Shown: positions 21,027 through 42,568 of the stretch, in pieces
How positions within the stretch are numbered: position 1 is the first letter of the stretch
Layout: each line of letters starts with the position of its first letter
Source of the DNA: Antedon mediterranea
Lineage: Eukaryota; Echinodermata; Crinoidea; Comatulida; Antedonidae
Direction of reading: 5' to 3'
Length of the DNA: 64,000 bases
Assembly (NCBI RefSeq): GCF_964355755.1
Contig: NC_092671.1
Span: 35,295,304 to 35,359,303, forward strand
Translations under genes and position numbers: made by a program
Notes under the pieces: generated by a model
What the model was told of the DNA's origin: nothing
Databases searched by the model: none
The model's input: only the letters and a program-made list of their open reading frames with translations

Positions 21027-21593
21027 TTATAGAGTGAGTGCATCTTCCTTTTCTAGATTGTTAAGGTTATCTACCTTTAACTGTTCAAAATCTCCCGGCT
21101 TATTTGCTAGTATTGCTTCAAAATCGTCCGGCCCCTTTGCTCCTATTGGTTCAAAATTGTTTGCTCCCTTCACTCTTATTGGTTCAAAATCTTCAGGCCG
21201 CTTTACTCTGATAAGTTCATAATCTTCCAGGCTGTCTGATTTTCTTATTGGTTCAAATTTTTGCGAAAATTCTTGACCTCGATAAAATGCATCCAAATTA
21301 AATGTTTTAAACAGAATACTTTCGTGAGGTTGCTCCAAACCGCCCTCAAACAGAATCGCAAAGTTTTGTGTCATTTTTCCAGTAAATGGATCGGTATCTT
21401 CAAAATATGTCAGATCTGAGTACGAACTCTTCAAATTGTATACCATCCATCCTGGACTCCACGTTTCACCGCCGTCGAGGCTTAATTTCACGGTCATGTA
21501 ATCACGGAACTTTCTTGATGCCGGATTCGAGAATAATAACCAACGCTTCCTTGGATGGTTCGGATCCGGGCTCGGGAATGCTATAACACTTCC
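21027..21593 (-). CDS. Sialidase exon 8: third Arg, nucleophile Tyr, repeat tail, stop
   Basis: It follows ATTCCAG. It encodes GSVIAFPSPDP, NPASRKFRD (third Arg), SLDGGETW, SSYSDLTYFED (nucleophile) and FAILFEGG...ESILFK. It then encodes a hydrophilic tail of 11-residue units (FEPIRVKGxxDF type) to TAA at 21029-21027. Confidence 0.93.
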   Translation of the reverse strand, partial: GSVIAFPSPDPNHPRKRWLLFSNPASRKFRDYMTVKLSLDGGETWSPGWMVYNLKSSYSDLTYFEDTDPFTGKMTQNFAILFEGGLEQPHESILFKTFNLDAFYRGQEFSQKFEPIRKSDSLEDYELIRVKRPEDFEPIRVKGANNFEPIGAKGPDDFEAILANKPGDFEQLKVDNLNNLEKEDALTL

Positions 21594-24500
21594 CTGGAAT
21601 GCAAGGAAAAACGATGATTTTAATATCAATTTCTTTTTCATTTTTTTTATATTTATTAGGAGTAGATTCTTGTCATTTGATTGGAGGATTTTTAGGTAAC
21701 ATTGTGGGTCACTACTCCATTGAACTCTTACATTCAAAACTGAAATTGTGTTAATATATACGAGTGCAATGCAAATTTTGTACTGACCAAAAAATCTTAC
21801 CTAACTACAGTAGAACATATGTTTTATGTACACTGACTTTTACGTTCCCTGGGTTTTATGTAAGTATGCATAAAATGACCGATGACGTCATCATTTTTAG
21901 TAATTTATTACTTAAATAGTGTTATTTTCTTACATTGAAGGCGCAATTTAACAAAAAAAAACCACAAAGCCAAGGCTGTGTGAGACAAGCCACACATGCA
22001 TTCCCCTATAATTAAAATTACTGAAGTATGGGCATAAAATGTATCTCCAGCTAGGCCTCACATCTAGCTACGCCTAGCCTAGATTAGTCTAGGCTAAGCT
22101 AGCGACCACTGTGTGAGTAAAGTAGGTAAACACGACAGCCTTTTTAACTACGATGTACATATTTGGGGGTTAATTTAAGGTCCACCTGGATTTTACAAAT
22201 CCTATGTTTTACATATGTCTTTTGGTCCCGTACCATATGTAAAACGAAGGTTCTACTGTAATTGTGAATGTGACAAAAAGGTATATATTTACAGTACTAC
22301 CATTGTCCAAAATGGTCCTGGGATGTAGTATATAATACTTAGTTTTCTCATGTTTACTCCCTAAATTTGAGGCTCCTTTACCTGGCAACCTGCTGCCTTT
22401 GATGGTATTGTATAAAAATCATCAACAATTTTAAAGCCAGGTTCAATCAATTCTTGTTTAATCTTCGGGTAAGAAAATGTCAAGCCACCATCAACGCTGT
22501 AAGACTGTATTCGAGGCAATAATGCATTTAATGTTCTTGTATTTAACATGACTGTTCCATTATCTAGTTCAACAACCTGAAAAAAAACCAGAGTTTTATG
22601 AGCATAATAATATTCTATCTACAAATTGAATATAGCCTGTTAAAACATTAATATTTTCCGGTCATACCTGCCAGTTTCTATAGCTTTACTAGCGAGTGGC
22701 CAAGCGGTTAAGACAGAGGGACCGTAATTATGGAACCATAATATCGGCAATGGTTTGAGGCTCACTCGCTCCATGGTTCTGGTGAAGTCTTTCATTAAAC
22801 TCAATGAACATTTAGGTATTTCCCTGAATTGTATTCACTTAGGAGATTTTTTTTCAGGGCAATCCCTATTTGTCTCAAAAAATGTTCTTTAAAGTGCATG
22901 CGAGCATTCTGTGTACACTGGATCTAAGGTTTTAAACTGGTTCTGGTGGTAGAACAAGTCTTTTGGCAAAGGATTATAAACCGTTTATAGTCCTTATCCG
23001 AGAAGACTCGTTCTACCACCAGAACTATGGAGCGAGTGACCCTAGAACCTTTGCTGATGTTATGGCTATGTATGGTTTCAATGTTTTATCCGCTCGGCCA
23101 CTCACTCAGTCAATCAAAAATTATCCTTTTAAACCTTCTTATAAGTCTATTCCAATACCCTTTCACATCTGCAAAATGTAAAAACTTGTAACAAGTTGTA
23201 ACCAGGTTTGATAAGTGTGAATAATTTTGCAGAAAGGTCACCTGTGAAATCTCGGGAGATTGATGAGAGGCCTGTTTTTTGTTTCAAGAAGTTTCTGAGT
23301 TCTTACTGTGTACGCGTGTATTGGCCTGGTATTAAACTGACCTAACATAGTTATAAAATAGCGCGCAACTATATTTTTCTTCCACTATTTCTCAGGCTTC
23401 ATGTATGCGTGTATGAAAACGTGTAATAAATCGGGAGATCAAACTTAGTTAAAATTGGTTATAAGTTGTAAAAAATTATGCAGATGTGAAAAGGGTACTA
23501 GAGTCCAAAACATGGTACTTACTGTAGCTTCATTAGTGTGGATGGGATACCCAGACTTTGGTTCCTGTGAAAAGGGTATTTTACCCCCCGTCTGCCAATT
23601 ATCTCCAAAGTCATCACTGTAGATAACATTTGCATAATTTGTGGTGTTTGAGAAATTGTCTAAATCAACTGAAATAAAAGCAACATTTAGTTATAGTACA
23701 GTCAAGTGTAAAACTTTTCCAATACCAGACTTTTCCTGATGTCCAAAATGTTCCAAATTCATTTTTACCATTAAAAACACATTCCCAATACCAGACTTTC
23801 AAGAAAACCAGAGACTTAGCCATCCCAAACGTGTCCGATATTGAGAGAGTTGACTGTATCAAATTTAGATGATAAAAAAAGAACTATAAATATGTAGTTC
23901 TGTAGTCCGAGGTTTATTAGGGAGTTTGATGTGTGGTGACCAAATTATGACCTAACTAGGTCACTGTCTGGATCTAGAAACCATTTAGGGTATGTTCAGA
24001 TTCACAGAGTTATGCTTTTGTATCGCAAGCAATGTCATATTATAATTAGCATCGTAACACCAAAGTGTTCAGATTTGGCCGAACATCTGGTATGCAGTAA
24101 ATTTGATTGATTAGAGGTCAAAATCGTTGATGTTGGAGGTGGTTCAGTTTCATTACACCGCGTACGATACAAAAGCATAACTCCGTAGGTCTGAACAAGT
24201 CCTTAAACTGTGTTGAGGTGGGGAGCTAGGAAGCACTTCCAACTTCCCCACATGCACACAATAAATTGACATGACCAAAATCAGCCTAAATTCAATTCAA
24301 TGTGATCATTTAAATTTGTCTTGGGACAGCCAGCGTTAATGTATCCTATTTATGGACATCCTAAACCTACCTAAATGCATGCCAATGTGATCTTTCACAA
24401 AGTAGTTTCCTGGAACCATTAAACGGCCAGATTTAAGTTTAATGCCGTGGCCTGGTCCGGGAGCATACAGCGCAGGTAGAGGGCGTATTGCTGCTAACGT

Positions 24501-27500
24501 TGAATCTGTGATATCTTGCGGTGCTGTCCATGTCTCACCATTGTCAAAACTCTATAATCAAAATAATGTTAACTCAATTATTAGAAAATCAAATATTTTT
24601 ATCTGCTCCTGTGTTTGTAGATGAAGATGAAGTTACTGTTTCTAATAAATTATACAATTCATCTGCATGAGAGAAACGGTCCCAATGATTATTTATTTTT
24701 ATTTAACCATATTTAATGAGGGTGATCCATTCAGCTATTGCTGATCATTAGGGACCCTCAGAGGTTCACAAGACAAACATACAAACAAAACATATACAAG
24801 ATGCTCTACTTAAACAAAGTCTTATTACAAGTCTTTGGGAGTGGAGTTGTAATTTGGTCCTTAGAAAAAATCCTGACATGTGACGGGACTCGAACCCAGG
24901 ACCCTTGAAGTGGTAGCCAAGCATCATAACCACCAGGCCACAACTCGACTTCAAAAAAAGATCTATTTCAGGCCCGTAGCCAGGGGGGGTTTTATGGTTC
25001 GGGCGAACCCCCCCTTTACAGCAAACCCCCTTAACCAACTGCGAACCCCCATCCCCGACATGCCCAATACCTCACCCTCATCTCCAAAAATCCTCCAAAT
25101 ACGTGCCCCACAGTACAAAAAGTTGTTTGTAAATTGAAAAATTCGTAAACTTGTTCGTGAACCTTCTTCTCTGTATGAGCGTCAACTAGTGATACGTGTC
25201 TGTAAATTTCTAAAAGCTGCAAATGAATTGCCGATTTTAACCTGAAAAATAAATGTTTGGTCCCTGCATGTAACATGATATTGACGCGTCTCATAGCGAG
25301 CTCAGCTGGCGCACGAACGATTCGTACAAAGGACACCGCCAGACAACTGCGTACCTATAATTGTTTAGTAATAATCACTGGCAGTCAGGCAGCATGCATA
25401 AAGTATATAGCCTTCCGACGTACATCAGTATTTATGTGTGACTATGAAGTATAATGTATCATAGAGGATTATAGTGAATATTAATATTTTACACTATAAT
25501 ATCTATGGTATCAAGTACTGTAGTTCACATTATGGCATCCGATTATTTTTTTCTAGACCACCAGCCGATACGTACTAAAATGTATCAATATCACCTATTT
25601 ACATATTTATATTCCTCAACAAATTGCTGTAAATAAATATTATAGATAGAGCTAGCAAATAGCATTTGCCTTCACCCAGTGTGATTTTTTCTGGGCTGCT
25701 CCTAGATATACGTTCGCATTGAACTTGAACGCAAAACAAAATACGGAGTAAATGATCAAACAATCGGCGGTTCCGCACAGAGCACGCGCATCTAACATAC
25801 GGCAACAAATAGTTATCGTCATTTAATTTATCGACGTGTTTGAGGAGGAGGAAAAAAGTATGATCTTTTTGCTCATTGGTTATATAGCACGAGAGTGTCT
25901 TTTCCGGCCATCTAGGGGTGTCATTTAACAAAATTCGCTTCGCATCAGGGTGGGGGAGTGGGGGGGGGGGGGGGGGGGGGGGGGGTGGGTTTGACCCAAA
26001 TATTTAGTGTCCGAACCCCCCCTTGACAGATCCTGGCTACGGCCCTGTATTTATAGCATTGTATTGTTGCTTGTAAATAGCTTTTAGTTTAGTTATTCAT
26101 GTTCTGTGTTGCTTCTTGATCTCACCGCATATTGTGAGTGCCACTGAAAGGTGCATGGTTAACAAATAAATAAATAAATAAGCCAACATATTATAAATAT
26201 AAAATATACATGTTCGTTCTGATACTATCAGATCTTCATCAGAGAATGACTGGTTATTTGTATAGCAACAGCGAGCTAGAGAAATGATAGCGAGATTTTG
26301 TTTTGGAATTTTAGGCTGTACATTAATTTTAATTGAAGGCAGATAAAGGAAAGCATACATGCCAACACTCCTGTTTTGGCCGGGAGACTCCTGTATTTTA
26401 GACTTATCTCTTGGCTTAATATTGTGCTCCCGTTGTTTTCTACCAGATTACAAAGATAACTGAATTTTGATACATATTTACGATTTTTAAGGGATTGTAC
26501 GACCATCTGCAGTCATAATTTTCTCAATGGATGGGATTCCCCTCACATAGCCACTTATGCAATACCGCTTTCGATGTCACACACTGCACTCGTTACCCCA
26601 TGATAATAGATAGAGTGAACTGTTCACCTAAAAAAACTCCAGTTTTGTTAACTTTAGATGTTGGGATGTATGGGAAAGCTTGGTGTAGGCATTCAAGAAA
26701 CAATTATAACAGATTACAATATTCATATACATATAACTTACTCTAGTAACTAGTACTGCTTGTTGATATAGGCCATCTCTCATTAATTTCCATTGTGATA
26801 TATGGGACGGGATTGCTATAAATACCATGAGCAACATATCTAGTTCTTTGTCTACAATCGGTACTGGGTTCATAGTTCTGTAAATATTTAAAAAAAATAA
26901 GGATATATCAATGATCAATATTTGTTTACACAACACACAATCAATATACTAGTAAGTAATATGATCAGTAATTGTTAACATATGATCAGTAATTATTAAA
27001 ATATGATCAGTAATTGTTAACATATGATAAGTAATTCTTATTCTTATTCTTTTATGGCCAAATATAAAATACATGAAGAACACGACATACAAAAAAACTA
27101 GAACTAACTGAGTGAGCTGGCATGGGACACAAAAGCGAACCTAATCACTATGACTTAAAGCCTGTGTTCCCCACTCACCCAGTTTCACAAGCAATGAATA
27201 TTGTTACCAAATGATTATTAATTGTTAATATATTATGATCATTAATTGTTAATAATAATATATGATCAGTAATTGTTAACATATGATAAGTAATTGTTAA
27301 CATATGATAAGTAATTGTTAATATATGATCAGTAATTGTTAACATATAATCAGTAGTGTTAATATATGATCAGTATTGTTAACATTATGATCAGTAATTA
27401 TTAACATATCATCAGTAATTGTTAACAAATGATCAGTTTGTCAACATATAATCAGTATTGTTAGTATATGATCAGTAATTGTTAGTATATGATCAGTAAT

Positions 27501-30500
27501 TGTTAACAAATGATGAGTAATTGTTAACAACATATGATCAGTAATTGTTAACAACATATGATCAGTAATTGTTTATAAGCAAACAATTAATATTTGTTAA
27601 TAATATAATAATGATCGATAATTCTTAATTAATAACAGTAACACACTGACAATTAATAATTGTTCAATAATATACTTAAGTTTCAAAAACATTTCAGTAA
27701 ATTATGATTTATCATTACTGTAGTGTGTTTGATAAATGATATAAATGATATAAAGATCAGAATTGTATATGTATTATAAATACATCTGTTCAATGTTCAT
27801 TCATACTTCAGACATAACATTGTTTGATCAGTCTACAATACTATGCAAATGCAGTATCAACTAAAGACAATTTGTATACAAACTAGATGTTTTGTTGATA
27901 AGGGCGTGTGGCGTAAGGGCGTGTGGCGCAGTGTGTTGGACGTTGGACTACCGATCGTCAGACCTAGGTTCGAATCCAACTCTCGCCGCATTGCTTGTAT
28001 CCGTAGGCAAGATACTTTACTTACGTTCCCTCTCTCCACCCAGGTGTATAAATGGGTACCCAGTTAGATCTAGACACAACTTTGCGCTGGTTACCGGCTG
28101 CATTATGGGAGTATGTTTCCATACGTGTTTGATCCCAAAAAATACTGGGGTAATAATGCTTGTAAAGCGCCTTTGAGCAGGGCGCTATATAAATGTGGTA
28201 TTATTATTATTATATTATTGATATATATTTATCTGAATTTGTTCTCATAAAACATTGAGTAGTAGTTTTAGTTTATTTAATGTAAATTAGAAATGTTTCT
28301 AAATTGTCTTCTTCAAAACTCATTTTTACAATCCTTTAAAGATACAGAATGTTGTCCCCATTTTTTTTTTCCACATTTTTTTTTTATTATGCCATTTTAC
28401 GGTCATAGTTATTCACTTTGACCAAAAACTGGACCGAAAAAAAAAAATGATTTACCTAATAAAAAAGTAATTTAAAGATGTACTGTTTTTTTGACTAATT
28501 CCAACAAATTTTTTTTTTTATATTTAAAAAAAAAAGTGCGTCATTTTGAAGTATCATAATAGTTATTAACCTTCACCAAAAATAATTTAACCAAAATACA
28601 GACGTTTTTTTTTTTCAAAAAATTACTTTGACTTCCAGTCAAAGTTTTCGATAAAAACATATCTCATAATGCAACATGCTTATTTGGCTTCTCTGTATGC
28701 ATAATCATAAAACCTCCTCGCGATCTGTGTGAAAACACCTTCTCAACCGAGACAAGTTGTAAACAATCCTAATTAGCATCATGCATAATGCATACTCATG
28801 ATTTGAAATCTTTGTTTACTTTCGCTCATGACGATTTACCAGACGAAATTTAATCAAATTAATTTACCTGTTAATTACGTAAACTTGTTTTTGCCTCGAA
28901 TTTTCGACCTAAAGTGAGTAACTTTAATATTACTTTGATATGGCCAATTTAAATTTAGAATACCTTTTTTTTCATTTTTTGTGTTTCAAGGGACAGAAGT
29001 GAATAACTTTAAAAAAACTGCAAAATGGCCTATTCAAAATCTGATTTTATTAATCTTTATTTTTCATGTTTTTGGTAGACAATACATCTTTAAGATTAAA
29101 GTTGCCAGTGTATTCACGTAGCTAGGTTACCGTAAACAGACTTAACAACAAACTTTAACTAAACCATGCTACTTATTCAAGCCTGTTTATTGACTTTGAA
29201 AATCTTATAACAATGTTTGAAAAAATCCACTTTAGAAATTGAGATATCAAATCATAAAATATACTGACCAAAGGTCTGTACGTGCTTAAGTATTGGATTT
29301 TGAGAGGCTGTGAGAGAGAGCATATGCTAAAAGCCATGGTGAGAGAATGCATGGTTTAATTGACTTTTAGAATTCAGATGTTGCATACCCAGAAGCTATG
29401 TTTGCTTTTTGGAGACGGACAATGTGGTCCGTCATGTGATATATTTACTCAATCATAAGTAGCAGTTTGCTTTGAAATAAAAAGTCAATATTAACTATAA
29501 AAAAATTACAGACTACTAGGCCTATATCATTGCGATGTAACCAGTACTGTGTAAAAGTACATTAGACACTGTATAGGACAGCACTAAATGTAAATGTGAT
29601 AGTGATAATATAGGTATACGGCCATACTAAATGTAAATGTGATAGTGATAATATAGGTATACGGCCATACTGCGTTGAAACACCGGTTCTCATCAGATCA
29701 CCGAAGTTGGGCCCGGTTGCGTTCTGGATGGGAGACCGTCTAGAAATAGCAGCGGGTGCTGTATACACAACAGAGAGTGATGGTGTAAATTATAATATCG
29801 AACCAGCTGCCATGGTTCTGTGGAGGGCCTAATCCAAATGTCCTCAGTTTCCAGTTAAGCTCAAGAACCAGAATAATACATTTAACATTTAGACACTATA
29901 GTAAAGTAATAAATGTATGAATTTTTACGGCTATCGTTTGCATGCTTTATAACTAATTTCACTTGCATACCTTTTTGGGTGCATATACCTAGGCCTAGCC
30001 TAGAAAGAAGCTGGGCCTACCATGGCAAGCACCACTGCTCGGCGACCAAATTCCCGCCTAGCCGAGCTAACCGAAAACAATCGTGTAGCAGAATTGACAA
30101 TATATAGGCCTACAAATGGTGTGTGTTTTTTTGTTTTTTTTAAATGGGGCCGCAGTGCAGACAACCTAGTTCGTACTCGTAAATCGTGCAACGAGCTTTA
30201 CCTAGTATAGAGCGATCAGTATTCTGCAATACGATTTATAAATAAAGAGCGCACACGTTACTTATTTCAGCGTGTCTGATTGGCTACATCCTTGAACCCA
30301 TGTTATAATATACTGTAATATTGATAGATAAATGTTACCTCATGCCTGGCATTGACACCACAGTCTTTGCGTCGCTCCATTCCACTTTCCATCCTTTTCG
30401 TTTACCTCTGCGTAATATAATATCCATATTGCCAATGTCACGGTGGGTGTCTTTTCTTGCTTCACAAAATGCCAGAAAATAGTCATTATGATACACTAAT

Positions 30501-33500
30501 GCAGGAATTCTGAAAACAAAACAAGTTTCAAATGTGATGAATAACAAATAAATATTTCTAATATTGTTAATACCATAAAATAATTTTATGGGGCATTTTC
30601 TTCTTTTGGAAGAGAGTTGAATTAGGCCATGTTAAGCTCTGTCTACACTATCAAACTAGTTTTACATAAAAAAGTGTGATGTGCCCAAATATGGTAGTGA
30701 TATACCGTATATTTCGGTGTATAAGTCGCACTTTTGACACGCAAATTTGACCTCTAAATTAAGGGTGCGTCTTATACACCGAACATAAATGCCTCACCAC
30801 ACAGATTGTACATCCTAGCTAGGCCTAGTAGGCTATCGTCACCTCGTTTGCTAGGCCTGAGTAGGCTAGGCCTAGCTACAGTAACTAACGTAACCGCAAC
30901 CTGCTTCTGCCTAGTTTTCAAGGCATTTTAGCATGATGTTATACTAAATATGATGAAAAGATTTGTTCATTATGGCGATAAAATTTCATTTGTAAACGTT
31001 TAGGTACGATTGGAATAGTATTTATTTATACAGTAGTTATACGCACGATCGCCGTACCCCCAGCGCAAGCCCTTCTCTTGGCGGCCACATGGTGTACGGT
31101 ATTCGACTAGTATATTCTCCAGGTGATTATAGAATGGACCTAGCGTACACACTTCTCGGATACATAGATACTAATCGAATACGATTGTCCGTGAAAACGT
31201 GTGCCCTCTCGAAATGATCGAGCGAGGCTAGCCCACACTCGCAGCCCACACGTACGTGTTACACACACGGTCATGCACTCGATGTTGCGGCTGTTGAGGC
31301 TGGGCGCAGCCGAGCCTAGGACTAGGTAAGAAAAAACCTAAATAAAGGACGCCGTTGCAGATATAACAAAATATATTATTACAATAATATTGATTACACT
31401 TTAAAAAAACATTGTTTTGATGAAATATAAGGTGCGTCTTATACACCGACGATATAAAAAATACCGATATTTTACTCTCAGTTAGGGGTGCGTCTTATAC
31501 ACAACAGGTGCGACTTATACACCGAAATATACGGTAGTCAAAATATGGTAGTGATATGACATCAATATGTCCATATATGGGCACATCACATTTTTTTGTC
31601 GCATAACGTTTGATAGTGTAGACAGAGCTTAATACTATAGTAATACCATAAAATAATTTATTTTTAATAAATACATTATTTTACGGGGTGTTTTAATTCT
31701 TTTAGAAGTGAGTTGAATTAGGCTATGTAATGTTATGATAATTCATTTTTTTCATAGCAAAGATGAGCGAGACCTTAAATTCTAAGATCAAGTTAAAAAA
31801 AAAGGCAGTGATGCTCTGCCTCGAGTGAATGAATGAGTGGCCGAGTGGTTAAGAAAGGGGAACCGTAATTACATAGCTATAACATCAGCAAGGGTTCGAG
31901 GCTCACTCGCTCCATGGTTCTGGTGGTATAACAAGTCTTCTTGGATGAGGAATATAAACCGTAGGTCCAATGTACACATCTAGCTCATGTGCACTTTAAA
32001 GAACCTACAGTAGTACCTGTACATCTTTCGAGACGAGTAGAGGGTTACCCCGGTGTATTTAGAGTACACACAGCCACTGTCACTTACAGCCACTGATCAT
32101 AACTGGGCCCTCTGGGAGAACAGTCTTTGACTGAAGAGGCTACCCACTATAAAGAAATAATTAATAATAAACAATAATTAAAATCTATAGGGGGAAATGC
32201 AAATACTCTTTTGATTTAAGATGGAAATAGTGAATAAAACTTAACTTAGAACAGTAGGTATGTTATAAAACAAATAATGTTTTGTATTAGTTATTACCTC
32301 CGCCAAGGAGGTTATGTTTTCACCCCTGTATGTTTGTGTGTGTGTTTGTGTGTGTGTCTGTGAACAGCCTGGAGGCCACAGTTTTTATCCGATTCTCACC
32401 AAATTTGGCCACAATGATCTATGCCTCAAAAGCTCGGACGAGTTCGAATTTGAGGGGAAAAGGTCATAGGTCAAGGTCACAACTAACAAAAAACTATTTT
32501 ACTGCCTAGAAACCACAGTTTTTATCCGATTCTCACCAAACTTAGCCACAATGATCAATGACTCATCATATAATTGTGGTTACATTTTGAAGGGTCAGGG
32601 TCAAAGATCAAGGTCCACAAAAAACAAAAACAAAAAAGAAATAAAAAAATAATATTTTAAAAAAAACTTCAGTGGGACTTGAACCAGCGATCTCAACTGT
32701 GAGAGGCTGGATACATAACCATTACACCAAACCCTCATCCACAACTTTGTAGTGTGCAGTTAGCCTATTTACACTTAGACCTAATAAAAAAACAATTAAA
32801 AAAAATAAATATATTTTCCAGTGACATTTTATGTAGGGGAATTTTACAATAGTCGGAGGTTTGTACTCTCGGAGTACCCTCTAGTTTGTAATTGTGTATG
32901 GTCTGGGTTCCAGACGGAGTTTTTGCCTAATATTAGAAAAAAGATCAATATTTTGGCACATATGGTGTTTCATATGTATCCTACTTGAGCTTGTATTTCA
33001 GACAAACGTCGAAAAGCCTTGAAATAACTACGGACTTGGAACAAGTCTAGCTACAGTAGTATATAGACTAGATTCATTATTCACACAGACTTGTACAAAT
33101 ATTATATCATATTTGTAGACCATATATTCAAAGTTGCTTTATGGCTATAAAGCAATTCAGAATAAACTAATCATTTAATTTATTTAATCAATATTTTAAA
33201 GCACAACCATTATGTTGCCATATTGATAAGATGTATAATTCGTGCGGTTTCAACAACAGATGCAGACAACAAAAATAACAATTTGAAAGTATAATACAAT
33301 AAAAAAAACATAAATTACATTGGATCACAATATTATAATGTTTAATATTTGTTTTAGGGACCATGTCAAAATTATTTTACTGCTGAGTTTACTGCAGTAA
33401 CTACAATTTGTTTACAGCACTTTTTAACTGGTTTAGGTACTTATTCAAATAAACATCCCCCTTGAATATACACCCCCCCCCCCCTCCCTCCCAATAGAGC

Positions 33501-36500
33501 CTTTATTTATTTCTCTGCCACATGCACATATACAGTACACAATATTGTATTACAACTAATATAACACATTTCTATTTGTAGTAGAATTCATTGATTGACA
33601 TGATCTAAAATTTACCAAGCATTTTGATACAATTTTCACTGTATTTTATCACTTCTCGATATTACTTGTGTTGTATTTTTTCATATCTAGGGGTATTTAT
33701 TTGATTATGCATGTTGTTACCATATTATACCCCATCCCAAAAAAAGCCACCCCAAAATAAACATCTCCTTAATAACGCTCCTGAAAAATAAATGCCCCAG
33801 GAAATACGATAATAAATTATTTAGCAAGCCTATTCTGTATATTCATATTTTGTTGGGCGTGGCACAGCTAATCAGGAAGAAGATGTTGGCCTATTTTCCT
33901 AATCCTTGGCGCAATGAAGCTAATTGCTGTTTTCTGTACGTTGGTATAATGTGGTGTTATGATAAAATTCCCCTACATAAGATTTCTCCCGATTATACAG
34001 TGTGTGATTAGGCTAATTTCACTACAACTTGATGAATGTAAGTTTGGTGTAATGGTTTGGACCTATACATTTATAGGTCCATGGTTATATATCCAACCTT
34101 ACACAGTTGAGGTCCCTGATTCATCATCTTTAGTATTTTTATTATTATTTTTTATTATTAATAATGTTACATATTTTAATTTTTCTACTATGAACCCAAT
34201 TTTACGTTAGGATGTTACTCAGCATTGGTTCGCATGCTTTTGAAAATTGTATATCTTTTAACACTAGCAGGTCTGAAAATAATTATCAAAGATTGTCTGG
34301 ATTGCCTCCAAAATTTAATGGAATGGTCCACGACCACATATCTATCTGTAATTTCAATTTAGTAAAGATCTGGCAATAAATTTTTGGGTAATCCTGCAAA
34401 CAAACACCCACCCACACACGCGACATAACCTCTTGTCAGAGGTAATAAAATACACATTGTTTACTGTTGTTAATGATTCTACCACATTAAAATAAAACTT
34501 GAATTAAAACTATGTACTGTTATAGAGATGTTGATACGGTCCCTTATGTATAGACAATGAAAACTGCAACGGTTGAAATAATTTTAAAAAAAGGCTGTAT
34601 TGTATTTTTAATGTAATCTTTTTCTCCCTGTTCTTTGTCATTTATTTTGTTGTCTAATGTTTTGTCATTGGCTAACAATAGGTTGTTGTAGTACTATACA
34701 AAAAAATGTTTATGAGTGCAGTGAATAGGATATTTCCATAAAGAATGAAACGAAGGATGGATTGGTCTATGCATTAGATATTAATATCTCTATGGTCGAT
34801 TTTACAAAATATTCATCATTTGTTGTTATTGAGAATTCTCATTGTAATAATATGTTATGTAATTGTAATTAAAAAAATGTTGGATTATTTGATTAGTATT
34901 TTATTATTGAATTTTAAAATTAAATAAAATACTGATAATTGTGATAAACAAACATAGTTATAATACTGTAAGGCATTATGAATTATAAAATACTAAAAGA
35001 ATGAAGTACCCACCCCTAGTTATTTTCTGATTGTTTATTATCTTTTTTTCTCTTCTCAACCCCACTCTAGAAACCTTCCCAGTACAAATTCTGGTCATTT
35101 TTATACATCATTATTCCACTGAACCTCAATTGAGGTGTATGATTGTGTGCAGTCTTTCATTTTTTAAATTGTATGTTTATGCAAGGCAATCTACCAACAG
35201 GAGGCTGAGCTCCGCAGATCAAAGTGTTTATCTGTGGCTGCAACAAGATCAGTTCCACTCCCATTTCAGACACCATGCACTGCAGAGAGTACATACAGTA
35301 GTACAGTACTGTGGGTATTTGTTGCAGCCAGACATAAGATAAAAAGACTGTTACAAGTTCCTATCTTGGCAAGTCAAGCTCAGTGTGCTGTTGTTAGATT
35401 GCCTTGGTTTATGTAAATCATGCGAATCATAAAAGTAAAAAAAAAAAATATTAAGCGTGGTTCCCACTAGCGACGCAACACAAGGACGTAACGCAACGCA
35501 AGTGAATTGACCAATCACAAGCGATGGCTTATTCGCTTGTGATTGCTAACTGTCTATAACTTCGCTTGTCATTGGTTAAAACGCTTGCTTTGCGTTTACG
35601 TCCTTGCGTTACCTTCTAGTGGGAACCAAGCTTTAAAGTCTATTATTTTTATTGACAAGATGGTCTAGATTTGATTACTAATCATAATTCTAATTTGTAT
35701 GTAGGCCTACTGAAAGTAAACAAGATAAACGTCAGAGAACAAACTTGGTTTAGCCGTGGGTGGTAGGTATAGTTAAAAATCTTGTCTTATTGCACAATAT
35801 TTACAGCCCAACAGCATCAAATTGACTTTTTAACAGGATCTACTGTACATATGGTGGGCGGAGGGGGCTGAATCCCATAGGCTAAATTTCCTGCACCCCA
35901 GTACAAGGTTCAATTTAAATGGTTTTATATTTCACCGATTAGTAGTACAGTACACAGTAGTGTAGTATAATTTGACCTCTTTGTGAACTATGACATGTTG
36001 ACATTCAGGATGGCCGCCCTTACAGAGCACTGGTGTTAATGTGAGGCAATAAAAAGATATTTAATGGATTAACATTAAGGGAATATAATTTAATTAAAAC
36101 CATTTTCTAATAATAATTTAAAATATAATATAAAAACTTAAGATAAAAATATTAAAGTTAGGCGTAGCAAATGAAGCCTTTTTATTTGGAGACTTTATGA
36201 AAATGAGCACAGTTGTAAATTAAAATGCATTCTTGTTGTAGCCAGAAAGACATCAATGGCGATATTTGTGAAAAATCTAATTCTGATCTAGATAATATTA
36301 TGCAAGTCTGAATACAGATCAATGACATATGTGGCTTAAATCAAACACACAATGAAGTACAGTATTTCTAAATTGGCAAATTGCGCCAGCTGCATGTGAA
36401 GTTTAAAGGGGGATTCTGGGTTTAAAATTGCTTTTAAATATCGTTTATTTATTAAATAAAAAATATTATAACAATATAGACATGTCAGAATGAAGAAGTA

Positions 36501-38826
36501 ATAACGAGAAATTAAAAAAATTAAATTTCATATACATTTTAGGGTAAATTCATGGAAAGTCTGTTTTTCAGCAGCTTAGGGAAGCTCATTAATATTCATG
36601 AGATATTCACAAAATCACGTCACCAGTGGATTCCAAACTCGCGACGTCATGTACGTTGTCTTTGTCAACTAATTTACATCTCTCTCCCCTGTCAAACGAC
36701 GACCACCCGATCATTGTGAAATACATTTTTTGAGATTTTCTAAGCTAGGCCTAAAGTGTAATAATAACAATAGTAGCATATATTTATTTGACATTTAATG
36801 AAATACAAAATTTAGTACAGATTACGGAGTCATAAATTATACTATTTTTATACCTCTATAGTACAGATCGTATTATCGGCTTCACGTACAATACTACTCG
36901 AGGCCTAGCCTAATGGGCGAGAGCCATTTTGACTAGGGATTCCATGCCACGATGGCTACGTTAAAACAGTGGGGCCCATAGCCCTAGCTAGCCTACTACT
37001 AGACGATTGGCCCATAAATAACAAAACCCATCCTATCAACCAAACTCATAAACAATCTAAACCTAAAACGTTCTACAAAATCGGCTGTAAATATTGAAGC
37101 AAAACAAGGTCCAATCGCCGTCCACACGTATGGTGTCCCGATCGTCTAAAATAAAATAGGCTTAGTTTACTCTCCAAAAAAGCGGATACTCATGCATCAA
37201 GCAAGTAGACCAGGTAGTAGGAAGGAGACCTAGCCGATCCGGCCCAGTTAAAAATTGAGCTAGCTAGTGTAGTAGACCCTATGCGAATTGATACTACCAG
37301 GCCTTTTACTATAGGCTGCACTACACAAATATTCCAACTCTCTCATTCGAGCTATATTATCTATACCATTCCGGTAGGTCGAGTCGACCTTCAATCAAAT
37401 ACTGTATATCGTTCATGTTGTGATTATAGACGGGGTATACTCGACCCGACCAGTTTGGTATTGTTGTATCTGCTTATCACGTGACGATGCCAGGCATGGG
37501 CAGTAGAGAGAGCACGTGTATCGTCGTCTCGCTCGATCCGATCCTCAGCAGGAATGTACAGTATACGTTACGCTTCATTGATTTTGATTTTTCCCTAAGT
37601 CGGTGCGAAAATCGGCAAACGTAAAGTGCAAACATATCTAATTTTTCACTATTTTGATGAATTTTCATAAAAAATTGACTTTATAAATGGGAAGACCGAC
37701 TACAATTACATCAGATAAGTATAATTTTACAAAAGTAATTGATATGGTTAATGATAACGAGTCGTCGGAAGACGGACCATTTCACGAATTTCCTATTTTG
37801 TAACCACAGTGTGATTTTGCCGTAGCTGCACTTGTAATCTGGCCTGATTTCACAGCCTTCGTTCTGCTTCACTGGGCGCTTATATAAATTGAAACTTTTA
37901 CCGTTCAAGAGACAAACAAATATATTTTACATTTTTTACTATTCATTTTAAACCCGGAACTCCCCTTTAAAATAGACACAAGGAGCATGCAAATCAAACT
38001 AACAGTAATGGTACTGATATGAATCCTGGATATACATTAAGAACCCTGGATATACATTAAGAACCCTGGATATACATTAAGAGCCCTGGGTGTACATTAT
38101 GGACCCTGGGTGTACATTATGGACCCTGGGTATACATTATGGACCCTGGATATACACTATGGACCCTGGATGTACACTATGGACCCTGGATGTACACTAT
38201 GGACCCTGGATGTACACTATGGACCCTGGATATACACTATGGACCCTGGATATACACTATGGACCCTGGATATACACTATGGACCATGGATGTACACTAT
38301 GGACCCTAGTTGACACTATGGACCCTGGAAATGGACACCATAGATCTTAGACTACTAGGAAGTACACTATAGACGCTGGATGTACATTACAGATAGTGGA
38401 TCATTATGGACACTGGAAACTAAAAGTTTTTAATTTATATTTACCTTGATGTATTGTAGCCGTGTTGACCTCTACTAAATATTACTGAAAAATAAGAAGA
38501 AAGAGAAATAGCTTAATTTACGATGTCAAAGAATACCTAATTTTAACTGCATCCTGATTAATACATACATTCTTTCAATCTACTGTACAATCAAATTGTA
38601 ATAATACTTTTATGCAGAAAAAAATTCATAGTTTACCTGTTGTTTCTGATTCGATAGGTCCAAATGAAGCATACTCTATCGTTTTTCTTCTTGTTATGTA
38701 TTTTAATGATTTTTCATTGTTCAGCAACACTATAGAATTCCAATCCCATATTACCCACAATGTTAGACAGCACCCCATTACAAATAGCATTCCTGAATTG
38801 TATTTTCTTATAAACGGCATTATCAT
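21027..38826 (-). CDS. Exo-alpha-sialidase, NEU2/3/4 type, with N-terminal membrane anchor (8 exons)
   Basis: Eight minus-strand exons join in phase to 542 codons including stop (541 residues). It should remove terminal sialic acid from glycoproteins or gangliosides. The sialidase signature is complete: RIP box with Arg77, acid Asp101, Glu286, Arg302 and Arg383 of the Arg triad, nucleophile Tyr411 in SSYSDL, and four Asp boxes (SFDNGETW 180, SDDFGDNW 257, SVDGGLTF 315, SLDGGETW 391). The GCQGSV and LLFSNPASRK segments place it with animal NEU2/3/4, not NEU1. Those run about 380-480 residues. The extra length is an N-terminal hydrophobic anchor (13-27) after RKY, predicting type II topology, and a C-terminal 11-residue repeat tail (479-533). 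The gene diverges from the thioesterase gene. Confidence 0.93.
21054..21218 (-). repeat. Coding 33-bp tandem repeat in sialidase C-terminus
   Basis: There are five 11-codon units (residues 479-533): ELIRVKRPEDF, EPIRVKGANNF, EPIGAKGPDDF, EAILANKPGDF and EQLKVDNLNNL. A decayed unit at 467-478 precedes them. The units differ at several residues but hold the frame, so this is not a recent slippage. Confidence 0.9.
22382..22576 (-). CDS. Sialidase exon 7: second Arg, Asp box 3
   Basis: It begins VVELDNGTVMLNTRTL, whose Arg is the second of the triad, and contains SVDGGLTF. It ends AAGCQ, completed by GSV in exon 8. Phase 0 at both ends. Confidence 0.93.
22692..23000 (+). mobile_element. tRNA-derived SINE, family A (class II tRNA-like head)
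   Basis: The head 22692-22769 has acceptor halves GCGAGTG and CACTCGC, the A box gtggccaagcgg and the degenerate B box ggtttgaggct. It is shared with the copy at 31831-32150. The body (tccatggttctggt) follows. It sits in sialidase intron 6, on the antisense strand. Confidence 0.75.
23155..23502. mobile_element. MITE in sialidase intron 6
   Basis: The ends taccctttcacatctgca and tgcagatgtgaaaagggta are inverted repeats of roughly 40 bp. The interior is non-coding. Confidence 0.7.
23523..23668 (-). CDS. Sialidase exon 6: Asp box 2, catalytic Glu
   Basis: It encodes VIYSDDFGDNW (Asp box) and ends PIHTNEAT. The Glu of NEA aligns with the catalytic Glu of NEU2. The acceptor is TTTCAG and the donor GTAAGT. 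Confidence 0.92.
23985..24206. mobile_element. MITE in sialidase intron 5, about 45-bp TIRs
   Basis: The left end includes agttatgcttttgtatcg and the right end includes cgatacaaaagcataact, with inverted extensions (tgttcaga / tctgaaca). There is no ORF. Confidence 0.75.
24371..24551 (-). CDS. Sialidase exon 5: Asp box 1, PGPGHGI
   Basis: It begins SFDNGETW (Asp box) and holds APGPGHGIKLKSGRLMVPG, the family's GPGHG turn and L-V/M-P-A/G strand. The donor is GTAGGT. Confidence 0.93.
24715..24955 (-). mobile_element. tRNA-derived SINE, family C
   Basis: On the minus strand it starts gtcgagttgtggcctggtgg (A box). It has the B box ggttcgagtcc, then the body shared with 5583-5770 (acaactccactcccaaagac...tagagcatcttg). 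It lies in sialidase intron 4, in the sense orientation. Confidence 0.8.
24971..26046. mobile_element. Non-autonomous DNA transposon, CAGG(G)CCGTAGCCAGG ends
   Basis: The left end caggcccgtagccagg and right end cctggctacggccctg are inverted. A TATTT flanks both sides and is a likely 5-bp target duplication. The ends are rich in G and C runs, and the interior has no transposase ORF. Confidence 0.7.
25960..25985 (+). repeat. 26-nt uninterrupted G run
   Basis: It is flanked by further G clusters (gggtgggggagtg before, tgggt after). Such a tract could form G-quadruplexes. Its length in the assembly is uncertain. Confidence 0.9.
26742..26877 (-). CDS. Sialidase exon 4
   Basis: It begins TMNPVPIVDKELDMLLMVF after TTTACAG and ends at GTAAGT in phase 0. 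The MNPxP segment followed by a hydrophobic strand matches NEU2/3 (MNPCP...LFLFFI). Confidence 0.92.
26945..27580. repeat. Minisatellite, about 20-21-bp unit (atatgatcagtaattgttaac)
   Basis: Many imperfect units alternate the words tgatcagtaattgttaac and tgataagtaattgttaac, with small indels. An interruption at 27050-27210 carries unrelated sequence. It sits in sialidase intron 3. Confidence 0.9.
27918..28213 (+). mobile_element. tRNA-derived SINE, family B
   Basis: The head 27918-27987 has an A-box region (gtggcgcagtgtgttggacg) and B box ggttcgaatcc. The body includes aactttgcgctggttaccgg. The tail reads gcgctatataaatgtgg followed by (ATT)n. The first 15 bases are duplicated just upstream. 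The body matches the truncated copy at 59305-59470. Confidence 0.85.
28340..29089. mobile_element. TTAA MITE family 2, long copy
   Basis: The TTAA at 28336-28339 and 29090-29093 flanks inverted ends, agatacagaatgttgtcccc on the left and agacaatacatct on the right. The interior has poly-T/poly-A tracts. The Kolobok/piggyBac-like target is inference from TTAA. Confidence 0.7.
29583..29670. repeat. Direct duplication preceding 5S-like sequence
   Basis: The block actaaatgtaaatgtgatag...ggtatacggccatac occurs twice in tandem. The second copy runs into the 5S-like sequence, so the duplication includes the 5S 5' end. Confidence 0.85.
29657..29769 (+). pseudogene. 5S rRNA pseudogene
   Basis: It matches 5S rRNA over most of its length: tatacggccatac, cgttgaaacaccggttctc, agatcaccgaagtt, ggatgggagaccg and gggtgctgtatac. 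About 8-10 bases after 'gaagtt' are missing, several positions differ, and no T-run terminator follows. It is probably a dispersed 5S-derived retroposon or pseudogene in sialidase intron 3. Confidence 0.85.
30339..30509 (-). CDS. Sialidase exon 3: RIP box, catalytic Asp
   Basis: It follows TTTTCAG and ends at GTAACA. It reads IPALVYHNDYFLAFCEARKD... then LRRGKRKG. It carries the first Arg context, the conserved Glu-x-Arg (EAR) and probable acid Asp101. Confidence 0.92.
30634..31630. mobile_element. Palindromic MITE, family 1, split by a second element
   Basis: The left half 30634-30705 and right half 31535-31630 carry the family-1 ends and the atggtagtgatatgacatc centre. An 829-bp element is inserted between them. 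The pair is itself bracketed by a direct repeat (ttgaattaggccatgt near 30617 and ttgaattaggctatgt near 31714). Confidence 0.85.
30706..31534. mobile_element. TA-target MITE (ccgtatatttcggtgtataa ends)
   Basis: The inverted ends are ccgtatatttcggtgtataa and its complement. TA lies on both sides (30704-30705, 31535-31536), typical of Tc1/mariner. The interior repeats the motif gtgcgtcttatacacc near both ends and includes TAGGCCTA-type words. There is no transposase ORF. Confidence 0.85.
31831..32150 (+). mobile_element. tRNA-derived SINE, family A, fuller copy
   Basis: The head (gagtggccgagtggttaag, B box ggttcgaggct) is followed by a long body: tccatggttctggt, tgtacacatctagctcatgt, aactgggccctctgggagaa and ctttgactgaagagg. 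The same body without a head is at 55225-55415. Confidence 0.8.
32287..34450. mobile_element. Fold-back composite element with cctccgccaaggagg ends
   Basis: The left arm begins ttattacctccgccaaggag. The right end is its diverged inverted counterpart (taacctcttgtcagaggtaa). Further in, a tRNA-like block on the minus strand (32665-32745, complement of ggtttggtgtaatggttatg with a ggttcaagtccc B box) faces a plus-strand block at about 33995-34115 (agtttggtgtaatggtttgg). The arms are therefore inverted copies of one tRNA-containing repeat around an AT-rich centre. Confidence 0.6.
35183..35407. mobile_element. Palindromic MITE, family 4, intact
   Basis: The ends ggcaatctaccaacaggagg and tgctgttgttagattgcc are inverted. 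The interior includes tatctgtggctgcaacaaga. A second copy at 49642-50060 is split by family-3 MITEs. Confidence 0.75.
35454..35632. mobile_element. Palindromic MITE, family 3 (agcgtggttcccactagcga)
   Basis: The ends agcgtggttcccactag and ctagtgggaaccaagct are inverted. The interior half-repeats gcgatggcttattcgcttgt and ttcgcttgtcattggtt make it a near-complete hairpin. A very similar copy is at 49752-49932. Confidence 0.85.
36407..37966. mobile_element. TTAA-flanked non-autonomous transposon, 1.56 kb
   Basis: TTAA at 36403-36406 and 37967-37970 brackets inverted ends aggggnattctgggtttaaa and its complement. The interior has TAGGCCTA-like words and no recognisable transposase. It is in sialidase intron 2. 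Confidence 0.75.
38018..38340. repeat. Minisatellite, 20-bp unit (ggaccctggatatacactat)
   Basis: About 15 units are in tandem, most exact with a t/g alternation (tatac/tgtac). Because 20 is not divisible by three, reading frames cycle through all three frames of the unit. The apparent ORFs are repeat artefacts. It is in sialidase intron 2, 100 bp from exon 2. Confidence 0.95.
38445..38484 (-). CDS. Sialidase exon 2 (40 nt)
   Basis: This micro-exon between TTTTTCAG and GTAAATA encodes VIFSRGQHGYNTSR across its borders. It supplies the stretch just before the RIP box. Only the phase given here links exon 1 to exon 3 without a stop. Confidence 0.85.
38637..38826 (-). CDS. Sialidase exon 1: start and signal anchor
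   Basis: It encodes residues 1-63 plus one base. It starts MIMPFIRKYNSG, followed by a hydrophobic core MLFVMGCCLTLWVIW, then a polar stem. The donor is GTAAAC. A second ATG lies two codons in. The basic residues precede the core, which favours cytosolic N-terminus and lumenal catalytic domain. Confidence 0.85.
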
Positions 38827-41800: not shown

Positions 41801-41959
41801 TGCCAATCCTGCATTTGACAATTGTAAGAGAGCACATGTTTTTTCGTAAACAACAACTCAATAGCTGCTTCAAAATAAATAATTAGAAAAATGTTTTGGT
41901 AGCCTATTTTATAGCATCACAAATCTCTTTTATAGTTACAGACAGGTTTCTATCTGAAG
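38827..41959. promoter_or_regulatory. Shared upstream region of divergent sialidase and thioesterase genes
   Basis: No exon is seen. It includes a dense cluster of taggcct/ctagta words at 39500-39910, a LINE 3' fragment at 40290-40760 and a single TTAA-family end near 41566. I cannot point to core promoter elements. Confidence 0.35.
40290..40760 (-). mobile_element. LINE (non-LTR) 3' fragment
   Basis: On the minus strand the translation includes VGTTQICARNLFVESNIPSF followed by YEYLRISTYRFLTRI. This pattern (FVxxNIPSF...LR...YxFLxR) is typical of the C-terminus of non-LTR retrotransposon ORF2. It is truncated and interrupted. Confidence 0.6.
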
Positions 41960-42568
41960 ATGATTTCCATGTCAGTGTTTCTAAGTCGTGGTCGTTACAA
42001 GTGGAAAACGTTGCATACTACACTGATAAGAATGTCTTCTTCATCTCAGAAACAATCTTTATTGGAGAGATCAAATTTTAAGTATTTTCTACCAATACAA
42101 AGTCGTTGGGCGGACAATGATCAATATGGCCATGTTAACAATATCAAATACTATTCTTACTTTGATACAGTAATTAATCACTATCTTATCAAACACTGCA
42201 AACTTAATACAAATCTGAAGACAACAGATTTGATTGGTTTAATGGTTGAGACAGAATGTTCATTCCACCGTCCTCTCAGCTTTCCTGAAGTGGTCTTATC
42301 AGGACTGAGCGTCACTAAAATTGGCAACTCTAGTGTGCACTACAAGATTGGATTGTTCGCAGAAACAGACGATTCTCAAAGAATGCTTTCAGGGGGCAGT
42401 TTCAACGAGGAAGATTTTTCTAGTCATAAACGAGAGGCATGCGCAGTTGGAAAGTGTATCCACGTGTTTGTAAACCCAAAGAAAAACAATGAATCTGTGC
42501 CTATACCAAATGAAATGAGAATTCCATTAGAAAAATTGTTAATTGACAATTATGTTAGTAAATTATAG
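41960..42568 (+). CDS. Hotdog-fold acyl-CoA thioesterase (4HBT/YbgC-like), intronless
   Basis: One uninterrupted frame of 202 codons encodes a single 4HBT-type hotdog domain. The signature SRWADNDQYGHVNNIKYYSY (residues 48-67) carries the conserved aspartate, Asp54, at the position of the 4-hydroxybenzoyl-CoA thioesterase catalytic Asp. Its helix continues YFDTVINHYLI. Such enzymes hydrolyse acyl-CoA to free acid and CoA. The first 40 residues lack Asp, are Arg/Lys/Ser rich and hold one Glu, so a mitochondrial targeting peptide is likely. Met25 is an alternative start. TTACAG ends at 41942, so a non-coding 5' exon is possible. It has no introns, unlike its neighbours. The substrate cannot be told from sequence. 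Confidence 0.88.
   Translation: MISMSVFLSRGRYKWKTLHTTLIRMSSSSQKQSLLERSNFKYFLPIQSRWADNDQYGHVNNIKYYSYFDTVINHYLIKHCKLNTNLKTTDLIGLMVETECSFHRPLSFPEVVLSGLSVTKIGNSSVHYKIGLFAETDDSQRMLSGGSFNEEDFSSHKREACAVGKCIHVFVNPKKNNESVPIPNEMRIPLEKLLIDNYVSKL

Follow-up and report, generated by a model that had tools for sequence, protein, structure and literature searches.

Vertebrate NEU2 is a cytosolic sialidase, its relatives NEU3 and NEU4 are membrane-associated without a clear anchor, and the route by which the NEU2-4 branch gets to substrates on the outside is debated. Influenza neuraminidase (GH34) has an N-terminal signal anchor, a stem, and a propeller that faces outward. This is the layout predicted here for an animal enzyme; GH34 is a viral family, and the likeness drawn here is one of layout.

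Human NEU2 and NEU1, among the closest described animal enzymes, are arranged differently. Human NEU2 (PDB 2f24, 9nqx) resembles the product of the gene described here over the whole catalytic domain, including six catalytic residues. In the accessible text of PMC9035539, NEU2 is a cytosolic protein without transmembrane domains, of which one mouse variant is found partly in membrane fractions and is termed peripheral. Human NEU1 is comparable in that its active site lies in the lysosomal lumen and two transmembrane segments have been proposed for it. However, these segments are placed on propeller strands and loops of NEU2-based models, with no separate N-terminal anchor in the available portion of PMC5137157.

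NEU5, a group placed at the base of NEU2-4, was defined in sea urchins, acorn worm, amphioxus, and lamprey, and has unusual exon structures (PMC3431349, 2012). The parts of that study open to us report no sialidases in the protostomes surveyed and, because NEU5 resembles NEU3 and NEU4, speculate that it could be membrane-associated. The gene described here is like NEU5, as characterized there, in belonging to the non-NEU1 branch and in having an exon structure unlike that of vertebrate NEU2-4, with eight coding exons against two to three. It differs in its predicted N-terminal anchor: within its accessible text, PMC3431349 names no such element (the word "anchor" is absent, and the single "transmembrane" belongs to the title of a reference), the comparison with NEU5 being one by description only.

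Gene structure and catalytic domain

The window that we analyzed is a stretch of 64,000 nucleotides from Antedon mediterranea. Between its positions 38826 and 21027, on the minus strand, we rebuilt a sialidase gene of eight coding exons that join into a single open frame of 541 codons plus a stop, in agreement with the coordinates given in a preliminary description of this DNA (Table 1). All seven introns are GT-AG with compatible phases throughout, and their lengths from 5' to 3' are 152 (the gap between exons 1 and 2), 7935, 3461, 2190, 702, 946, and 788 bp. Scored with textbook-like weights of our own setting, the seven donors range from 2.3 to 4.5, and that of exon 1 stands at 3.8.

Table 1. 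Coding exons of the sialidase gene and associated features, in window coordinates
Feature	Position	Strand	Content
Exon 1	38637..38826	-	Start codon, signal-anchor candidate, stem; 63 codons; phase-1 donor
Predicted transmembrane segment, codons 12-29	38740..38793	-	Insertion estimate, hydropathy
Exon 2	38445..38484	-	40 nt, phase 1 to 2; codes VIFSRGQHGYNTS as far as the split codon of the catalytic Arg
Exon 3	30339..30509	-	RIPAL motif, catalytic Asp101
Exon 4	26742..26877	-	Part of catalytic domain
Exon 5	24371..24551	-	Asp-box SFDNGETW
Exon 6	23523..23668	-	Asp-box SDDFGDNW, catalytic Glu286
Exon 7	22382..22576	-	Catalytic Arg302
Exon 8	21027..21593	-	Catalytic Arg383, Tyr411, C-terminal tail, stop
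4HBT thioesterase ORF of neighboring divergent gene	41936..42568	+	4HBT_2 6.2e-12; bounds the sialidase gene on its 5' side

The spliced protein matched Pfam BNR_2 (E 2.5e-27), BNR_3, and BNR, the last at three stretches. Its best solved relatives were NEU2 chains (E 1.3e-29), with alignments covering query residues 64/65 to 454, and human NEU1 was a weaker match (Sialidase-1 chain 8du5, E 8e-14). The catalytic residues in NEU2 numbering are R21, D46, E218, R237, R304, and Y334, according to the part of PMC3431349 available. In a multiple alignment, R77, E286, R302, R383, and Y411 pair with NEU2 R21, E218, R237, R304, and Y334, respectively. D101 pairs with D46 in the pairwise structure-chain alignment; the multiple alignment is one column off here and sets R100 against D46. 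The protein therefore has the features of a GH33 animal sialidase (RIP motif, Asp-boxes, Arg triad, Tyr/Glu pair, and Asp), and by sequence it falls in the NEU2/3/4/5 branch of this family. The preliminary description had claimed a NEU2/3/4-type domain with every catalytic residue in place, of the branch that excludes NEU1; both statements hold, the second by comparison with NEU2 and NEU1 only. The catalytic part has only two cysteines. It thus gives no sign of several disulfides, which we count against a lumenal enzyme.

The C-terminal tail, encoded in exon 8, includes the product of a 33-bp tandem repeat (21083..21232, minus strand; 4.5 copies, 74% matches), an 11-residue protein repeat of the type FEPIRVKGANN that was not seen in the composite proteins of the two paralogues, A and B, treated below. 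We can only guess that it serves as a spacer or a lumen-side binding tail, and it is likewise a guess that the copy number of the 33-bp unit may differ between individuals.

Two of the introns hold further repeated or RNA-like sequence. Intron 3 contains a 5S rRNA-like sequence on the plus strand (window 29657-29767; a match to Rfam RF00001 at 50.5 bits over the full length of the model), probably a pseudogene or a 5S-derived repeat, and intron 2 contains a tandem array of ~20-bp units (window 38040-38310), which was spotted by eye and also appeared as repeated frames.

The first coding exon and the paralogues

A genome search with the whole protein returned 40 rows. Outside contig C5 these fall, by position, into 13 places: this gene, paralogues A and B, one place on contig C1, three on C4, and six on C8. 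Further places lie on C5 and are matched also by BNR_2 and by exon 8. Each C8 place is represented by one row, and five of the six have E values of 0.05 to 0.36, at which chance matches are possible. These five places, within C8:4779075-5276621, match the exon 3 part alone and are possibly divergent or broken copies. On C4, two copies ~20.7 kb apart (C4:4052705-4060265 and C4:4073433-4080993) have identical match scores in the listed rows, which suggests that they arose by recent tandem duplication.

Paralogue A, paralogue B, and this gene share 39 to 42% identity, the exon joins of composite A and B having been made by eye, and the C1 paralogue reaches 43.5% identity with this gene across a smaller number of columns. 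Plain identity does not mark B out. A tree of six rows (NEU2 and paralogues) grouped this gene with B at a moderate support of 87/91, which is below the star level of the tool; in this tree, the branch of NEU2 is long and one of the forks is open.

Exon 2 of the gene has no in-frame start codon, and the codon of the first catalytic Arg is split across exons 2 and 3. A working enzyme therefore requires an upstream coding exon. The candidate, exon 1, starts MIMPFIRKYNSGMLFVMGCCLTLWVIWDWN. An alternative first exon, which the preliminary description had raised as a challenge to its own reading, was sought among exons that begin with ATG, span 4 or more codons, and end in a phase-1 donor scoring 2.3 or higher, reaching up to 41935. 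Under this filter, no coding first exon besides exon 1 was present in the 3.45 kb (41935-38485) between the thioesterase ORF, whose start is ~3.1 kb from the sialidase start codon, and exon 2.

To gauge how often such exons arise, we used a background set of 394,266 strand-bases, made up of the window and 15 further genome stretches on both strands, with small overlaps counted twice. ATG exons that ran to 60 codons or more and had a phase-1 donor of at least 3.5 gave nine rows (eight ORFs), including exon 1 and a paralogue B candidate. At the same donor score, with at least 30 codons and a 15-residue hydropathy of at least 2.0, there were four rows. Two of these were again exon 1 and the paralogue B candidate, and one of the remaining two also lies upstream of B; these remaining two set the chance expectation at ~0.02 per 3.45 kb. 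Other measures say less about exon 1. Its codon score, under a model trained on 1632 codons, was -4.0 bits, a value exceeded by 42 of 150 stop-free stretches (which include exons of this gene), making codon usage uninformative. Pfam found no domain in exon 1 alone, and a genome search with its peptide matched only itself and one further place at E 4.9.

Paralogue A lies on contig C2 at ~1.25 Mb. It also has an exon of 40 nt, identical in phases (EIFGQGDHEFNTF), ~8.6 kb before its own exon 3, and 7 of 14 residues are identical to those of exon 2 here, counting the split codons at both ends. By length, phase, and sequence, the two exons are homologous. In the 11.2 kb upstream, paralogue A has eight first-exon candidates, none of them with a 15-residue hydropathy of at least 2, and the nearest (MASNLAAATANVLPIT, ~0.6 kb before exon 2) is short and nonhydrophobic. 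It is conceivable from this candidate, and from the uninformative codon usage of exon 1, that the main transcript of our gene also starts from another first exon and yields an enzyme that, like paralogue A, would be cytosolic or peripheral, with exon 1 belonging to a minor isoform or going unused. We consider this unlikely, given the lack of a further ATG-started phase-1 candidate up to the thioesterase ORF and the structure of exon 2, past which translation from the first Met in exon 3 would cost the first catalytic Arg. The gene structure, its homology, the catalytic residues, and the lack of another candidate first exon in this interval are established directly.

The first exon of paralogue B is ambiguous. 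Three candidates lie within 8.8 kb, two of them with a membrane-grade segment, and a further 8 kb holds two more. One of the two with such a segment, with a donor of 6.5, is a 116-codon ORF that, read from an internal Met of our choosing (MRKDTTTFLHHMFVLLMFLSSFSFFMMFSYLQF), gives a membrane insertion estimate of -1.23 kcal/mol; the best donor (7.1) belongs to a candidate that is only mildly hydrophobic (1.17). Over residues 1-193 of composite B, Pfam found nothing. When ten upstream stretches were filtered for long or hydrophobic phase-1 first exons, three rows came up, two for B and one, nonhydrophobic, for A. An anchor may thus be common to the clade of this gene and paralogue B. The rows for the C1, C4, and C8 genes were empty, which is a weak control with their exon 2 unplaced. 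Scanning of the paralogue stretches gave no convincing exon 2 on C1 or C4, the one possible C4 exon having been picked out by eye only; on C8 it gave a piece (EVFSTADGSEPGNTY) with a donor of 4.4 and a weak acceptor.

The predicted membrane anchor

The exon 1 product has a basic start, a hydrophobic segment of 16 to 18 residues, and then a stem. The preliminary description had read it in the same way, as RKY followed by a hydrophobic run and a polar stem; the type II anchor itself is a prediction. It had also contrasted this N terminus with that of NEU2, and the contrast is upheld, since the RIP Arg of human NEU2 is already residue 21 and its best segment, taken from residue 11 on, is not membrane-grade (insertion estimate, 1.54 kcal/mol). 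Compared with NEU2, the gene adds the 63 N-terminal residues of exon 1 and the 11-residue-repeat tail.

The insertion estimate for residues 12-29 was -0.57 kcal/mol. The segment ranking next in the same protein stood at 2.19 and the best of paralogue A at 3.52; a glycophorin A sequence, used as a control, gave -1.79. Only 7 of 2000 composition shuffles reached a value as low as that of exon 1. The 15-residue hydropathy was best at residue 12 (2.23). Over 19 residues the best was only 1.49, level with a propeller segment, and at this length the segment is not singled out. The flanks carry a charge of +2 over residues 1-12 and 0 over residues 28-42, and further basic residues at 39-49 weaken the charge argument for a type II topology. 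AlphaFold2 modeled exon 1 alone as a single helix over residues 3-53 with a mean pLDDT of 69.1, which rises to 86 over residues 11-20 and 91 over 21-30 and is of low confidence past residue 40. N-glycosylation sequons in the catalytic part number four, near the chance value (shuffle mean, 2.9), compared with five in the soluble-type paralogue A and one in paralogue B.

It is also important to consider whether the hydrophobic segment is instead a cleaved signal peptide, which would leave the enzyme secreted or lysosomal. A short hydrophobic core of 15 to 16 residues and a positive n-region would suit this explanation. However, the simple (-3,-1) rule found no cleavage site after the hydrophobic segment, both fitting sites lying inside the core; the modeled helix runs on through the segment to residue 53, with the drop in confidence noted above; and one paralogue B candidate has a segment of 22 residues. 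We therefore think cleavage improbable. Still less probable, to a degree that we regard as slight, is an N terminus that is not an ER signal at all but a mitochondrial one or a lipid-modified peripheral tether (e.g., acylated at Cys19 and Cys20), for which the adjacent cysteines, the basic residues beyond the segment, and the lysosomal, mitochondrial, and ER locations described for NEU4 in the accessible text of PMC9035539 could be cited, but against which the insertion estimate and the near-flank charge point to a type II anchor.

By computation, then, exon 1 has a single N-terminal hydrophobic segment, a more positive N side, and no cleavage site, as expected of type II proteins. Taken together, the insertion estimate, charge, cleavage rule, and modeled helix favor a type II anchor that stays uncleaved and has a Golgi-like length.

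A proposed anchored sialidase

We propose that exon 1 would act as an uncleaved signal anchor carrying the sialidase into the secretory pathway. The cytosolic end would be MIMPFIRKYNS, followed by a membrane segment at about residues 12-29 and then, as far as about residue 53, by a helical stem. The propeller would then be oriented to the lumen or the outside, where sialic acid would be removed by the usual retaining mechanism, with the carboxylate held by Arg77, Arg302, and Arg383, Asp101 as the acid/base, and Tyr411 as the nucleophile together with Glu286. The short anchor would suit residence in the Golgi or at the cell surface. Membrane insertion, topology, location, and activity are predictions in this scheme, and we regard an uncleaved, active enzyme that faces the lumen or the outside as probable.

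A more tentative proposal, which we hold to be possible rather than probable, concerns its origin. Within this expanded sialidase family, the clade formed by paralogue B and this gene may have left the cytosol when a first exon was exchanged or gained before the conserved 40-nt exon 2; it would then hold integrally anchored ectoenzymes of the NEU2-5 type, in the lumen or at the cell surface. Among titles and abstract openings listed by our searches of the open-access literature, with subscription papers largely outside this scope, no anchored animal sialidase of the NEU2-5 type is described. Such an enzyme appears to be new within the known GH33 NEU2-5 family, as far as that literature goes.

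If the anchor is right, the active site would be lumenal or outside, unlike that of cytosolic NEU2. A NEU2-5 relative with an explicit signal anchor would, if true, present a first-exon change as a route to the cell exterior, and would provide a testable enzyme in a deuterostome lineage in which unusual sialic acids abound.
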